64,000 nucleotides of DNA from an uncultured Marinobacter sp. (GTDB lineage Bacteria > Pseudomonadota > Gammaproteobacteria > Pseudomonadales > Oleiphilaceae), in assembly GCF_913055835.1 (NCBI RefSeq), contig NZ_CAJXKQ010000001.1, forward strand, positions 124,001 to 188,000. Reading direction: 5' to 3'. Positions 9,055-52,907 of this stretch are shown here, piece by piece (position 1 is the stretch's first letter; every line of letters starts with the position of its first letter). Below the pieces are notes generated by a model. The model ran no database searches and was not told the DNA's origin. It saw nothing but the letters and a program-made list of their open reading frames with translations. A program made the position numbers and the translations under genes.

Positions 9055-11100
9055 TTACTCGGGCTTCTTGGCAACCAGTGTCAGGATGTCGTAGCTCGCA
9101 ACCAGTTCGTCGTTCTGGTTGGTCACCTGGACATCCCATACAACCACACCCTGGGGGTGGCCGTCGGGGGATGTCCGACCCTGATCGATCTTGCGCTTGC
9201 ACGTCAGCCGTGCGCGGATGGTATCTCCCGGCGCAACCGGCTCAATGAACCGCAATGTATCCAGGCCGTAGTTCGCCAGCACCGGACCTTCGCCCGGGGA
9301 AACGAACAGCCCGGCCGCGGCCGACAGTACAAAGTAACCGTGGGCGATGCGCTTGCCGAACTGGGATTCCCGGGCGGCAAGTTCATCAAAGTGCATGTAG
9401 AAGTGGTCACCGGACAGGCAGCCGAAGTTCACGATGTCTGCTTCGGTCACCGTGCGGCGGTGCGTCAGCAGCGACTCGTTGATCTGCAGGTCTTCGAAAT
9501 GGCGACGGAACGGGTGAACTTCAGTCTCAATCACGTTGGCACCGCGCACGTACTCGCGGGTTACTGCGGCCAGCATGCTCGGGGAGCCCTGGATTGCGGT
9601 GCGCTGCAGGTAATGGTGAACCGCACGGATACCACCCAGTTCCTCACCACCACCGGCGCGCCCGGGGCCGCCATGCTTGAGCATGGGCAGTGGCGAGCCG
9701 TGGCCGGTGGACTCTTTCGCGGCTTCGGCATCCAGCAGGTGCAGACGGCCGTGGAAGGCAGCCAGCAGTGGTGCGACCCTGCCAGCAATGGCGGGATCCC
9801 GAGTAGTCAGGGTGGTGACCAGGGAGCCGCGGCCTCTGGAGCACAATTCAACGGCGTCCTCGATGGTGTCGTAGGGAATCACCGTAGCCACGGGGCCGAA
9901 CGCCTCAATGTCATGGGCGCCACAGCCGTTTTCCGGGTTACGGCACAGCAGCAGGTGCGGTTCGATGAACGCGCCCTTCTCGGTGCCATCGCCAGTCGCC
10001 TTGAAGCTGCCGTCACCACCAACTACCAGCTCGCTGGTCTTGAGCAGTTCCTGGATATTGGCTTTGACATCTTCCAGCTGGTCGATGGAGGCCAGTGCAC
10101 CCATGCGAACGCCTTCGACAGAGGGATCGCCGACGGTGACCTTCGACAGACGCTCTTTGAGCTTGTCGCAAACTGCATCTACCTGGTCTTTCGGCACCAG
10201 GACACGCCGGATGGCGGTACACTTCTGACCGGCCTTGGCGGTCATTTCACGTCCAACTTCCTTCACGAAGACATCGAATTCCTCGTGCTCGGGAGTCACG
10301 TCTGGGGCGAGGATCGCACTGTTAAGGGAATCCGCTTCGGCATTAAAGGGAATCGAACGGTTGATGATGTTCGGGTGGTTACGAAGCTTGCGCGCGGTGG
10401 CGGCGGAGCCGGTAAAGGTAACCACGTCCTGCTCTTCCAGATGGTCGAACAGGTCACCGGTGCTGCCGATGATCAACTGCAGACTGCCTTCCGGAAGCGC
10501 GCCTGATTCCTGCATCAGGCGAACGGCCAGTTCCGTCACATAACAGGTAGAGGTGGCCGGCTTCACGATGGACGGCATACCTGCCAGGAACGTGGGTGCA
10601 AATTTTTCCAGCATGCCCCACACCGGGAAGTTGTAGGCGTCAATGTGAACGGCAACGCCACCGCGTGGTACCAGGATATGGGTGCCTGCAAAGTGGTTGT
10701 TCTTGCCCAGTGGAGTCACCGGGCCTTCGTGCACCACGTTGCCAGAGGGCAGCTCGCGCCGGCCCATGCTGGCATAAGAGAACAGGGTGCCGAAGCCGCC
10801 ATCGATATCGATGCCGTTGTCGCCCTTGGTGGAACCGGTGTGCATCGACAGGGCATAGAGCTCTTTCTTGTGTTCCTGGAGGTACAGGGCCATGGCTTTC
10901 AGGGCCAGGGCACGCTCCTGGAAATCCATCGCCATCAGGTTTTTACCGCCAACCTTGCGGCCATACTCAACGGCGTTCTTGAAATCGAGGGTGTCGTCGT
11001 GGGTATGGGCGACGATTTCGCCGTTAACGGCGCTTGGCAGAGCCTTGGCAGGCTTTTCACCGACCCACTGGCCGGCAATAAAACTTTTCAGGACTGACAT
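9055..11100 (-). CDS. paaZ: PaaZ: oxepin-CoA hydrolase / 3-oxo-5,6-dehydrosuberyl-CoA semialdehyde dehydrogenase
   Basis: A 681-residue bifunctional enzyme, the same length as E. coli PaaZ. The N-terminal aldehyde dehydrogenase domain (about residues 1-520) carries the catalytic Cys294 in AGQKCTAI and the cofactor-loop [14 protein letters not shown]. The C-terminal MaoC-like hotdog domain (about 540-681) carries [14 protein letters not shown] with the Asp/His hydratase pair. It opens the oxepin-CoA ring and oxidises the resulting aldehyde. ATG at 11100 is chosen because GGAG lies six bases upstream; an in-frame ATG at 11112 has no ribosome site. It follows paaE after an 87-base gap with a perfect hairpin. 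Confidence 0.93.
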
Positions 11101-46162: not shown

Positions 46163-46897
46163 ATGAGCAACTGGAAAAAATCGCCCATCCTCTGGATGGG
46201 GGGCAGCATTGCCGGCGTCGGCCTCATTGTTGGTCTGCTCTATGCGTTTGGAGTGCATCAACAGGTGGTTGAGTTACTGCGCTGGTTTGATACCCAGGGT
46301 GCCTGGGCGGCTTTATTGTTTATTGGCATCATGGTGCTTGCCATGGTGCTACTGCTTCCGGGGGTTCTTCTGACCACCGGCGCTGGCTTTGTGTTTGGCG
46401 TACTGGAGGGCACGGCTTACGTGGTGGTGGGTACCACCCTTGGCTCGGCCATTGCCTTTCTGATTGCCCGGCATTTTCTGGGTGAACATGCCCACGTGTA
46501 TATCCGCAATCGGGCTCGACTGTCTGTGGTCAGCAACGAAATGGCACCCCACGGGTGGAAAATCGTGCTGCTGACCCGCCTGATCCCGTTCTTTCCCGGC
46601 AAGCTGTCCAATTTTCTGTTCGGTCTCACCAACTTTTCATTTGGCGGTTTTGTCGCCGGCACCTTTTTCGGTGTGATTCCCTTTTCCCTGCACAACGTGT
46701 ATCTCGGCTCGCTTGCTGCCGACCTCTCTACTCTGGGCGTGCGGGAAACCGGCCGCACACCACTGGAGTGGGCCATTTACGGTGCGGGTTTCGTAGGCAC
46801 GGTACTGGCCGTGGTGTTTCTCAACCGACTCGCCCGGCGGGCCCTGGCTCGTTACAAGGTCGAGACTGAACCAACAGAACAGGCGGCAAACGAATGA
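46163..46897 (+). CDS. TVP38/TMEM64 (DedA-like) membrane protein
   Basis: A 244-residue inner-membrane protein with about six hydrophobic segments. The central block LLPGVLLTTGAGFVFGVLEGTAYV and the later RLIPFFPGKLSNFLFGLTNF, with its R-x-x-P-x-x-P pattern, mark the TVP38/SNARE-associated family. Members are thought to move or arrange lipids, often as scramblases. Its stop overlaps the start of the glycoside-hydrolase-like gene (ATGA at 46894-46897), so the two are coupled. Confidence 0.85.
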   Translation: MSNWKKSPILWMGGSIAGVGLIVGLLYAFGVHQQVVELLRWFDTQGAWAALLFIGIMVLAMVLLLPGVLLTTGAGFVFGVLEGTAYVVVGTTLGSAIAFLIARHFLGEHAHVYIRNRARLSVVSNEMAPHGWKIVLLTRLIPFFPGKLSNFLFGLTNFSFGGFVAGTFFGVIPFSLHNVYLGSLAADLSTLGVRETGRTPLEWAIYGAGFVGTVLAVVFLNRLARRALARYKVETEPTEQAANE

Positions 46898-49089
46898 GCT
46901 GGATGAAGTGGCTGCCCTGGCGTTATCTGGTAAAGCGCGTGGCCCATCGCCATGGTTTTCTGGACCCGATCGCGCTACTCGGAAAACTGCACAGCTTTGC
47001 CCAGCCTTCGGAAGTCGGCGAGCCTATCGAGTTGCTCAGGGCCGGCGTGGTTTTCCACGCGCGGGGGCTGATCAACAGTCGGGTCATCCAGCATAACCTC
47101 GACTGGGTCTGGCCCTACTGGGTGGAGCGTCAGTTCGACCCCGAGGATGTTGCCTTCATTCCCCGGGCATTCTCCATCACTCACATCAATTTGAGTAACC
47201 GAAACTGGACGGCCATTGGCCAGCCGAATGTGGATGAACTGCCGGTTGTGGATCCCCGCGGGTTGCTGACCCCGTTCCATGACAGCTGGTCACTGGATGC
47301 GTGGTTGTTGGCAGACGATGGCCGCTGTCTTCTGCCTTCACGTTGCAGGACGGCCCGGCAGCGCCAGGAACTCGAAAATGGCCCTTGTGTGGTCACGGAG
47401 TCGGAGCTGGATGGGCTGGCCCTGACAAGCCGCTCCCGGGTGGTGGTGGAGGAGGGCCGCCCCGTTTGCGAGATGGTGGTGAAGGCGAGGGCTGAGACTT
47501 CCGGCTCCCTGGTCATATCACTGCGTCCGGCCAATCCTGAAGGGATCAGTTTTATCAACAAGGTGCGTCTCTCCGAACAGCGAGACGCCTGGACCGTGGA
47601 CGGCAAGCAGGCGGTATTCTTCAATCGGCCCGCTGAGCGGCATCATGTGTCGAACTACCGCCAGGGTGACGTTCGAATTCACCTGCACGACAAGGAAGAC
47701 CAGAGCGAAGGAACATGCGACGTTGGCATGGTTACGGCGGCGGCCCTGTTCCGGGTTGAGGCCGGGGAGGAATCGGAACTCAGGCTCAGGGTGCCGCTGC
47801 AGGATGAATCGGCCCCGATCATTCGTTCGGATGGCTGGGCCAGTGCCCTTAAAGGGCACGCCCGGTTGGAGTGCCCGGACGAAACCTGGCAGTTTCTCTA
47901 TGACGCTGCTCTGAGTTCCCTGGTTCTGCACTCTCCGGAAGACGTGTATCCCGGTCCCTACACCTACAAGCGGTTCTGGTTCAGGGATGCCGCTTTCATT
48001 ATCCATGCCTTGCTTTGTGCAGGTCTGACTGACCGGGCCGAGCGGGCGCTCTACCAGTTCCCGGCGAGGCAGATGAAAAATGGCTATTTCCGCTCCCAGG
48101 AAGGGGAGTGGGATGCCAATGGAGAAGTGCTCTGGATTCTCAGGCGATACCATGAACTCACGGGCAGGCCGTTGCACAGTGAATGGCAGGAACCCGTGCG
48201 CAAGGGGGCTCGCTGGATCGAGAGAAAACGTCTCAGCGATACGATTGACGAGCCCCATGCGGGTCTGCTGCCCGCCGGTTTCAGTGCCGAGCACCTCGGG
48301 CCCAATGACTATTACTATTGGGACGATTTCTGGGGCATCGCTGGCCTCAAGGCCGCCGAAGCATTGTTTGCCCCGATTGACCGGCCAACCAGCGAGCATT
48401 TTGGCGCCGGTGCCCGAGAGTTCAGCCAGACCGTTGATCGCAGTCTGGCAACCTGTGAGCAACGGCTGAAGCGGCCGGGCATGCCGGCATCACCCTACCG
48501 TCGCCTGGATGCCGGCGCCATTGGCTCTCTGGCGATCGGTTACCCCACCCAGCTGTGTGAGCCGGATGATCCCAGATTGCTCGATTGCGTCGAGTTTCTG
48601 CTCGACAAATGCTTTGTGAAAGGTGCGTTTTATCAGGACATGATTCATTCGGGCCTGAACGCCTACCTGACCCTGCATGTGGCGCAGGTGCTCCTGCGCG
48701 CGGGTGATCCACGGTTCCTGGATCTGGTGGATGCGGTTGCCCGGCTGGCCTCACCAACGGGGCAGTGGCCCGAAGCGATCCATCCGGCGACCGACGGCGG
48801 CTGCATGGGCGATGGTCATCATGTGTGGGCGTCTGCCGAATGGCTGCTGATGGTGCGTAACTGCTTTGTCCGGGAGGAAGGCGATCGCCTGATTCTTTGT
48901 GCCGGCATTCCCCCGCGTTGGCTTGAACAGGACAAACCCATCCGCTTTGGTCCGGCGCCGACCAGTTTCGGAACCCTGTCCATTACCATCGTGCCACGCC
49001 CGGGCGAATCTCCTGAAGTGACCTGGGAGGGCCATTGGCATGACTCCGAACCCGATATCGAGGTAAGGCTGCCGGAGATTCGCGGTTGA
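46894..49089 (+). CDS. Putative (alpha/alpha)6-barrel glycoside hydrolase
   Basis: A 731-residue protein without a signal peptide. The N-terminal half (about residues 1-320) is beta-rich. The C-terminal half (about 330-700) looks like a six-hairpin glycosidase domain, as in amylo-alpha-glucosidases, GH15, GH63 and related enzymes. Barrel-type blocks include YTYKRFWFRDAAFIIHALL, GEWDANGEVLWILRRY and YYYWDDFWGIAGLKAAEAL, with acidic residues that could be catalytic. I recognise no specific family. It is coupled to the TVP38 gene, which suggests a role at the membrane or in a glycolipid or osmolyte pathway; that is inference. Confidence 0.65.
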   Translation: MSWMKWLPWRYLVKRVAHRHGFLDPIALLGKLHSFAQPSEVGEPIELLRAGVVFHARGLINSRVIQHNLDWVWPYWVERQFDPEDVAFIPRAFSITHINLSNRNWTAIGQPNVDELPVVDPRGLLTPFHDSWSLDAWLLADDGRCLLPSRCRTARQRQELENGPCVVTESELDGLALTSRSRVVVEEGRPVCEMVVKARAETSGSLVISLRPANPEGISFINKVRLSEQRDAWTVDGKQAVFFNRPAERHHVSNYRQGDVRIHLHDKEDQSEGTCDVGMVTAAALFRVEAGEESELRLRVPLQDESAPIIRSDGWASALKGHARLECPDETWQFLYDAALSSLVLHSPEDVYPGPYTYKRFWFRDAAFIIHALLCAGLTDRAERALYQFPARQMKNGYFRSQEGEWDANGEVLWILRRYHELTGRPLHSEWQEPVRKGARWIERKRLSDTIDEPHAGLLPAGFSAEHLGPNDYYYWDDFWGIAGLKAAEALFAPIDRPTSEHFGAGAREFSQTVDRSLATCEQRLKRPGMPASPYRRLDAGAIGSLAIGYPTQLCEPDDPRLLDCVEFLLDKCFVKGAFYQDMIHSGLNAYLTLHVAQVLLRAGDPRFLDLVDAVARLASPTGQWPEAIHPATDGGCMGDGHHVWASAEWLLMVRNCFVREEGDRLILCAGIPPRWLEQDKPIRFGPAPTSFGTLSITIVPRPGESPEVTWEGHWHDSEPDIEVRLPEIRG

Positions 49090-51916: not shown

Positions 51917-51995
51917 CGCGCTTGCCTTGTTATTGATTATTGTGAGGGAATGGTGACGAGAATTGTGCTGGAGCGAGGGAGCAGAGACAAGCGCA

Positions 51996-52907
51996 ATGGC
52001 CTATTGGTTGATTTGCAATTCCAGGGCGGGTGATGGTGAGCGTGGCAGGGACTTCTGGCTGGAGCACCTGGCCTCGGCAGGTATCCACGAACCCCGGTGC
52101 CATGACTTTGAAGACGCCGACTGGAGCGAGAATCTCGGCGCCGGGGACACGGTTATCGTCGCAGGCGGCGATGGATCGGTGAACCGTGCCGCTGCCATAT
52201 GCCGGAACCAAGGCGCGACGCTTGCCATTCTGCCCTCTGGAACAGCCAACGACTTTTCCCGGAATCTCGGGCTTCCGCAACAGCCGGAAGCCCTGTGCGA
52301 ACTGATTGCCAGGGGCGTTACGCAAACGGTTGATGTGGCAGAGTATGGCGACGGCATTTTTCTGAATGTCGCCCATGTGGGCATGGGAACCTTGCCTGCG
52401 CGGGAGTCCCATGGTGCCGAGAAAAAAATCTTTGGGCGATTCAGTTACGTCGTTGAATTATTGCGCCGGTTGAACGCAAAGCGAGGCTTCAGGGCAACCA
52501 TTCGTTGTGATCGGGGCGTCGTAAAGGGGCGATGGCTTTCAATCGCGGTAGCCAGTGGTGCTTTTTTTGGTGGTGGCAATGAGATTCCCGAGGCCTCCGC
52601 CAGTGATGGCCAGCTGGATATGATCGCGGTCCGGCCACGACCGATCCTCCAGCTCCTGTTTACCTTTTTGATGGTTCGCCTTAACAGGCAGGCTCCCAGG
52701 CGTACCAGCACCCTGGTCCATATCAAGAGCCAACGCTGTCTCGTACACACCGGCAAACCAAAAACGGTGACGGCCGACGGTGATGTGGTCTCCCGAACGC
52801 CTCTCAACGTAGTCTGTAGGCATGGCAGCCTTCGCGTTATCGGACCGAAGGTCGTCAGTACCGCCGCCAACGGTAAAGGCAAAGAGGGGCTCCCCGACAC
52901 TGCCTGA
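51996..52907 (+). CDS. Diacylglycerol/lipid kinase family protein
   Basis: A 303-residue protein of the DAGK catalytic family (YegS/BmrU-like). The nucleotide site VIVAGGDGSVNRAAA and LAILPSGTANDFSRNL are the family's GGDG and G-T-x-N-D motifs. The C-terminal beta domain includes FFGGGNEIPEASASDGQLD. It would phosphorylate a lipid or a related substrate such as phosphatidylglycerol or sphingoid base. ATG 51996 (MAYWLICNSRAG) is chosen over an upstream in-frame ATG at 51963. It is divergent from the dehalogenase-like gene. Confidence 0.88.
   Translation: MAYWLICNSRAGDGERGRDFWLEHLASAGIHEPRCHDFEDADWSENLGAGDTVIVAGGDGSVNRAAAICRNQGATLAILPSGTANDFSRNLGLPQQPEALCELIARGVTQTVDVAEYGDGIFLNVAHVGMGTLPARESHGAEKKIFGRFSYVVELLRRLNAKRGFRATIRCDRGVVKGRWLSIAVASGAFFGGGNEIPEASASDGQLDMIAVRPRPILQLLFTFLMVRLNRQAPRRTSTLVHIKSQRCLVHTGKPKTVTADGDVVSRTPLNVVCRHGSLRVIGPKVVSTAANGKGKEGLPDTA

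Follow-up and report, generated by a model that had tools for sequence, protein, structure and literature searches.

A conserved gene pair in Marinobacter joins a VTT membrane protein to a GH15-like protein without a named family

The gene pair

The window analysed here is a stretch of 64,000 nucleotides of DNA from an uncultured Marinobacter sp. It carries two overlapping genes on the same strand (Table 1). The first encodes P0001, a membrane protein of the VTT/TVP38 type, and the second encodes P0002, a large protein that belongs to no Pfam family. A preliminary description, made from the sequence alone, had called the upstream product TVP38-type and had noted that its stop overlaps the next start by four bases. 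Both statements are correct: P0001 scores 78 bits against PF09335 (cut-off 33.9), and the ATG of P0002 and the TGA of P0001 share an ATGA. Against the UptA NCBIfam equivalog P0001 reaches 21.3 of 250 bits, short of the cut-off. P0002 begins with MSWMKWLPWRYLVKRVAHRHG; judged by eye, it has no signal peptide.

Table 1. Positions of the genes and their parts in the window
Feature	Position	Strand	Basis
P0001, VTT/TVP38-type membrane protein, 244 aa	46163..46897	+	ORF; PF09335 at 1.1e-21; orthologs co-occur with those of P0002 (same 15 of 58 relatives)
ATGA stop/start overlap	46894..46897	+	Sequence; spacing of -4 also in 50 of the 71 genome-contig loci with VTT upstream
P0002, GH15-like six-hairpin protein without Pfam family, 731 aa	46894..49089	+	ORF; no match in Pfam; AF2 model; structure matches
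P0002 residues 1-99, conserved basic Trp-rich segment	46894..47190	+	Conservation in 60 orthologs; model partly of low confidence; outside the match to distant relatives
P0002 residues about 100-300, predicted beta-sandwich domain	47191..47794	+	AF2 secondary structure; 9ju0, 1lf6 and 1ug9 matches span the domain
P0002 residues about 314-660, predicted (alpha/alpha)6 barrel	47833..48873	+	AF2; alignments; W362-x-R364-D365, D407, E466, D477, E627

Conservation of the pair

Do the two genes belong together? Orthologs of P0002, with at least 59% identity, occur in 15 of 58 related genomes, our own included (14 of the 37 from the genus and one from the order). Orthologs of P0001, scoring at least 206 bits, are found in exactly these 15; elsewhere, in the remaining 43, the best P0001 match reaches at most 79.1 bits or is missing. 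At all 15 loci a VTT gene lies directly upstream of the P0002 ortholog. A class-level search matched 27 of 369 genomes: our own, 15 with full-length orthologs (L016-L030) and 11 with distant relatives only. VTT directly precedes the ortholog at 10 of these 15 class-level loci; the preliminary description had missed that the other five lack it. By eye, no recurring substitute stands upstream of orthologs without VTT. A third set was drawn from genome contigs; it leans to close relatives, because it consists of the best 80 of 543 loci. Here VTT is directly upstream at 71 of the 76 loci with at least 800 bases upstream, and the spacing seen in the window is common (Table 1). At one locus (L094) VTT lies downstream instead. 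The pair is real and conserved, and the coupling of its genes that had been suggested from the window holds up among its relatives.

The P0002 family is large. One collection contains 543 confirmed places, many of them in MAGs and, by record titles, spread over several phyla; among the best 80 of these, the closest named loci are from Marinobacter (94% for L045). Searching viral and phage collections with P0002 gave zero matches, and a plasmid search gave three distant ones.

The operon in relatives

Clustering the ORFs of the 80 genome-contig loci produced four large families: P0002 (75 loci), VTT (65 loci), a protein of ~429 aa (43 loci) and a protein of ~806 aa (43 loci). The next neighbour cluster covers only 21 loci, and the smaller ones look like local synteny within a few genera. 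Family scans identify the ~429-aa neighbour as a GT4 glycosyltransferase (two proteins scanned) and the ~806-aa neighbour as a two-domain phosphoesterase, PF01663 plus PF03372 (EEP) (three proteins scanned). By HMMs built from the clusters, GT4 lies downstream of the P0002 ortholog at 52 of the 80 loci and the phosphoesterase at 42. GT4 is also downstream at 15 of 15 class-level loci, including the five without VTT; flanks in that set are too short to score the phosphoesterase. The most widely kept partner outside the window's clade, GT4 is absent from this lineage, and the preliminary description had missed it.

What might these two enzymes act on? Among NCBIfam models, the two GT4 proteins scanned score best with alpha-monoglucosyldiacylglycerol synthase, at 151.1 and 165.3 bits, and next best with an N-acetylglucosaminyl phosphatidylglycerol synthase, well below its cut-off. 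The first model has a cut-off of 400, far above both scores, so the acceptor they suggest is tentative. Relatives of known structure include D-inositol 3-phosphate glycosyltransferase (7qsg) and phosphatidylinositol mannosyltransferases (3oka, 2gej). Since many EEP enzymes, including sphingomyelinases, resemble the EEP half of the phosphoesterase, this likeness does not fix the enzyme's substrate; the fold list is filled by that domain and leaves the phosphodiesterase half uncovered. By the families found, the four largest neighbour clusters contain no sugar transporter or glycogen gene.

GT4 is missing from 28 of the 80 loci, of which 24 are titled Marinobacter (one, L059, with too little flank to tell) and four are others (L051, L085, L107 and L114). 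On a quick tree of 60 orthologs its presence and absence need two changes. Since 12 of the 13 GT4-less rows, the window's among them, form one group (starred SH-aLRT 99), with L114 apart, the simplest history is a single loss of GT4 in the window's Marinobacter-type clade. GT4 is still present in two of the 15 relatives, one of the genus (L014) and one of the order (L015). The window's genome has no close GT4 counterpart (best 35% identity), its only match to the phosphoesterase is an EEP match of 28.9 bits, and we identified no partner glycosyltransferase for P0002 in it. A metallophosphoesterase-like/GT4 fusion of this genome was considered as a substitute. It scores highly in 14 of 14 P0002-positive genus genomes (two with an in-frame TGA) and was rejected as unspecific because 16 of the 23 P0002-negative ones carry it too, one of them in pieces.

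We also searched for Pho-boxes, approximating the VTT start by a fixed offset, and found no signal: best scores at 75 loci were 8-11 of 14 against a shuffled mean of 8.9, and the window scored 9 against a shuffled 8.84.

Fold and family of P0002

Pfam returns zero families for P0002 up to E 1, and zero for 60 of 60 members of its ortholog alignment at 0.01, in keeping with the earlier remark that the protein matches no nameable family. NCBIfam offers one match, TIGR01577, whose 9.9 bits fall far short of the 820.7 required, and phmmer finds nothing among PDB sequences at E 1. The AF2 model, made from the 60-row alignment, has a mean pLDDT of 80.8 and a pTM of 0.84; its low-confidence stretches include residues 31-76 and 458-473. 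The six-hairpin C-terminal half that had been surmised appears in the model as an (alpha/alpha)6 barrel preceded by a beta-sandwich. This is the architecture of GH15, and it is common to other families too.

Foldseek places glucodextranase 1ug9 (1.2e-14) and glucoamylase 1lf6 (9.4e-14) at the top, with disaccharide phosphorylases after them. The top VIA row is dextran dextrinase 9ju0 (Z 27.7, rmsd 4.2, 522 aligned). Others are 5z3c (Z 27.5 over 301 residues only), 1lf6 (Z 27.1, rmsd 3.1, 518 aligned), GH65 7fe3 (Z 26.8, 518 aligned), 1ug9 (Z 25.8, rmsd 3.3, 525 aligned), 7vma (Z 25.4) and the methylmannose polysaccharide hydrolase MmpH, 7qsj (Z 25.0). GH15-type enzymes are thus among the best structural matches; since Z differences under 1 are ties, the fold alone picks no family.

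Profile comparisons point in more than one direction. With hhalign, which favours GH15 among the few profiles compared, P0002 and 17 relatives reach 98.6% over 505 columns against 10 GH15 proteins, 97.0% over 318 columns when an eleventh GH15 sequence is the master, and 0.1% against reversed GH15; the orthologs alone reach 21% against a two-sequence GH15 set. The same method gives 96.3% against six GDE_C matches (several of which also match PF17389), 2.0% against two others, 38.7% against one SOGP protein and 0.6% against two GH65 (PF03632) proteins. Because these sets are small and unequal, GDE_C, SOGP and GH65 all stay in contention. In the alignment that includes distant relatives, 6 of 18 rows reach E 1 with the GH15 model PF00723 (best 0.0016). 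The distant relatives do better with the GH78-type PF17389 (2.3e-6), and one of them (G069) passes its cut-off, with 28 bits against 24.5; neither P0002 nor any of the 60 orthologs matches that model. The barrel profile finds rhamnosidase 2okx best in the PDB (1.1e-5), with MmpH at 0.00099 and dextran dextrinase at 0.0013. A GH78 sequence search matched 7 of 60 genomes, largely the GDE_C set again plus two distant P0002 relatives.

Clean GH15 membership was rejected: PF00723 is unmatched in P0002 and in 60 of 60 orthologs. Because the distant relatives favour the GH78 model and the best PDB match of the barrel profile is a rhamnosidase, we call P0002 GH15-like rather than GH15. It would be an enzyme of the six-hairpin glycosidase superfamily that the GH15 Pfam model does not reach. 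The preliminary description had named two outcomes that would count against it, a pair that is not conserved and a large protein that falls cleanly into a known cytoplasmic family with another role. The pair is conserved, and P0002 falls cleanly into no known family.

These matches bring to mind a soluble substrate. In the cytoplasm P0002 could act as a glycosidase for recycling an alpha-glucan or oligosaccharide of the soluble or storage kind, with VTT and GT4 in general envelope sugar traffic. The nearest solved enzymes (1lf6, 1ug9 and 9ju0) act on maltodextrins or dextrans, MmpH is also matched, and one distant relative lies near GH15 and SOGP-type genes. However, the constant neighbours are VTT and a GT4 whose best NCBIfam models glycosylate lipids, and the largest neighbour clusters are free of sugar transporter and glycogen genes; we regard this alternative as rather unlikely.

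The N-terminal segment of P0002 sets it apart from its distant relatives, 13 of which were aligned and share 18-24% identity with it. In 60 orthologs the first 22 residues have a median net charge of +5 and 3 Trp. An amphipathic membrane anchor was considered and dropped, the signal for the N-terminal helix of P0002 being weak (0.20-0.26; best-window median 0.42 in the 60 orthologs). In 29 distant ORFs (some retrieved twice, some truncated where the locus ends) every match to the ortholog profile begins at position 97 or later, and 12 of the 18 rows of the distant-relative alignment, five of which are orthologs, carry F5/8 type C domains. The first 100 residues are thus special to the VTT/GT4-linked group. 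The distant relative with GH15 and SOGP-type genes nearby (L132), a 'discoidin domain-containing protein' on a Methylosinus plasmid, is homologous to P0002 over 104-709 (136 bits).

Candidate active site

In five of five hhalign settings W362, R364, D365, D407 and E627 fall opposite residues that all 10 GH15 proteins share; E405 stands opposite a Gln. R364, D365, E405, D407, E466, D477 and E627 are invariant in the 60 orthologs, and the first four of these and E627 are invariant also in 18 of 18 rows with distant relatives. Such constancy argues against the view that the barrel is catalytically dead and serves to regulate or anchor the VTT protein or GT4. A scaffold would fit the long N-terminal segment, which is conserved, and the link to a membrane gene, and the position of the general acid lacks a clean match, but we think a dead barrel very improbable.

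Which residues would do the chemistry? In GH15 the acid and base are placed in the alpha5-alpha6 and alpha11-alpha12 loops (PMC12446779). By our helix count on the AF2 model, E627 lies in the alpha11-alpha12 loop, as a GH15 base Glu does, E466 in the alpha5-alpha6 loop and D477 at the start of alpha6. The two alignment methods treat the acid differently, and the model is of low confidence at 458-473. hhalign leaves E466 one residue off the GH15 acid Glu, and HMMER pairs D477, within YYWDDFW, with the Glu in the IWED motif of dextran dextrinase 9ju0 (E 0.0013). From the motif, we take this Glu to be E671. E671 is the acid/base catalyst of that enzyme (PMC12446779). The general acid is ambiguous between D477 and E466, and we lean slightly to D477. 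The GH15 Arg-Tyr pair (R500 and Y501 of the GH15 protein L134), present in 10 of 10 GH15 proteins, has no counterpart in P0002 on our reading of the hhalign alignment, which makes glucose an uncertain substrate.

P0002 might also build rather than cut. It would then be a transglycosidase or a scaffold involved in extending or assembling a glycan on a lipid, in the way that dextran dextrinase builds dextran with the same fold. Dextran dextrinase heads the VIA rows (tied with others within 1), GT4 adjoins P0002 in relatives, and retaining and inverting members are indistinguishable by sequence (PMC12446779). Yet according to the same paper the nucleophile of dextran dextrinase is placed by intersubunit contacts that involve domain N1, and a shallow look at the P0002 model and its structure matches shows no sign of this domain. 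We consider a synthetic role improbable.

Proposed function

Our preferred reading, which is tentative, is that the VTT protein moves an alpha-glycolipid and that P0002, as a GH15-like glycosidase in the cytoplasm, trims it or turns it over. P0002 would work at the cytoplasmic side of the inner membrane and act on the alpha-linked sugar at the end of the glycolipid, E627 serving as base and D477 (or E466) as acid. The VTT protein, translated together with P0002, would carry either the glycolipid or the lipid carrier of the glycolipid across the membrane. In relatives the presumed maker of the alpha-glycolipid would be GT4, whose nearest model is alpha-monoglucosyldiacylglycerol synthase, and the phosphoesterase could supply or remove the lipid headgroup. 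In the Marinobacter-type lineage, with these two genes gone from the locus, the pair may act on a lipid glycosylated elsewhere.

Retaining GT4 enzymes make alpha-glycosides, the linkage that GH15 enzymes cut. Because this stereochemistry is common to GT4 and GH15, and the best models of the GT4 are lipid-type, we infer that a glycolipid is the likeliest shared substrate of GT4 and P0002. UptA is a DedA protein. Transporters of the UptA type flip undecaprenyl phosphate (PMC11474028), and proteins with PF09335 are predicted to act as transporters (PMC7818093); by analogy, a lipid or a lipid phosphate is a fitting cargo for the VTT partner. The preliminary description had suggested a route for either glycolipids or compatible-solute glycosides. 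The first gains indirect support from the relatives' operon, with its sub-cut-off GT4 and its phosphoesterase. The second has no support among the neighbours, and 2-O-alpha-glucosylglycerol phosphorylase (4ktr, 4ktp) appears in the Foldseek results from rank 31 onward, as one among many barrel enzymes.

A broader view, possible though doubtful, is that VTT, the cytoplasmic GH15-like glycosidase, the GT4 and the membrane phosphoesterase make up an undescribed, widespread module that builds, edits and moves an alpha-glycolipid; such a module might stand in for PlcP-Agt remodelling. In that case P0002 would be the founding member of a new glycoside hydrolase family, one that acts beside VTT and edits bacterial glycolipids from within the cytoplasm, and the Marinobacter-type clade would have kept only the half of the module that edits and transports.

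In titles and abstract starts of the open-access literature we found no description of this pair or operon. P0002 belongs to a GH15-like family without a name, in an operon of which this lineage keeps two genes. The family matters because it is large and spans several phyla without a Pfam model. We know of no cargo for most bacterial VTT proteins; a VTT gene tied to a putative sugar-cutting enzyme and, in relatives, to a lipid-type glycosyltransferase offers a handle on that question. Such an operon also suggests an unstudied route by which membrane glycolipids could be made or trimmed.

Comparison with known systems

P0002 shares its predicted beta-sandwich and (alpha/alpha)6 barrel, W-x-R-D and the base Glu with GH15 (glucoamylase, glucodextranase, isomaltose glucohydrolase, and dextran dextrinase as a homolog). 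It differs in its failure to match PF00723, in an uncertain acid that is perhaps Asp, in the Arg-Tyr pair that our alignment reading finds missing, in the extra conserved N-terminal 100 residues, and in its operon with VTT and, in relatives, GT4. GH78-type rhamnosidases and GDE_C (amylo-alpha-1,6-glucosidase) have the same barrel and are weakly matched by distant relatives, but P0002 and its orthologs match neither Pfam model. In the distant relatives of ~1000 aa, such as L132, F5/8 type C takes the place of the N-terminal segment.

The relatives' operon recalls PlcP-Agt lipid remodelling, in idea only, by setting a lipid-type glycosyltransferase beside a phosphoesterase (PMC4796936). It differs in that its phosphoesterase is PF01663 plus PF03372, that the window's locus has neither gene and that no Pho-box signal accompanies it. 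P0001, finally, matches PF09335 over the cut-off like other VTT transporters (DedA, TVP38, UptA); unlike UptA, it falls short of the equivalog and forms an ortholog group of its own that tracks P0002 through the 58 relatives.

Additional genes in the window and source genome

Three kilobases downstream of the pair formed by the VTT/TVP38-type membrane protein and P0002, the six-hairpin GH15-like protein, lies a YegS/diacylglycerol-kinase-type gene (Table). Its place and size suggest that it belongs to neighbour cluster 10 of the clustered loci, which is present in 13 of 80 loci (the best 80 of 543); those listed for it are Marinobacter loci.

Table. Additional features
Feature	Location	Evidence or remark
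YegS/diacylglycerol-kinase-type gene	window 51963-52907	PF00781, 3.7e-18
Two more VTT matches	G000:C53:6915-7439 and 10358-10792	~3 kb apart
747-aa protein	L125:451-2694 (G000 contig C7)	NCBIfam score (C-terminal half); by eye (N-terminal half)

One of the two further VTT matches in the source genome (G000) falls inside a 752-aa open frame, perhaps a VTT fusion; similar long frames occur repeatedly in relatives. In Marinobacter similis (L056), two separate ORFs 5' of the P0002 ortholog share the VTT match, with scores of 210 and 154; the split points to a disrupted gene or to an error in sequencing.

A distant P0002 relative of the F5/8 type is encoded on a Methylosinus plasmid (L132:4091-12064), with genes for a GH15 protein and a SOGP-type phosphorylase close by.

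The 747-aa protein, widespread within the genus, has an N-terminal half that looks metallophosphoesterase-like. Its C-terminal half scores 208.9 bits against the alpha-monoglucosyldiacylglycerol synthase model (cut-off 400), higher than both tested GT4 glycosyltransferases from relatives' operons, all three being under the cut-off.
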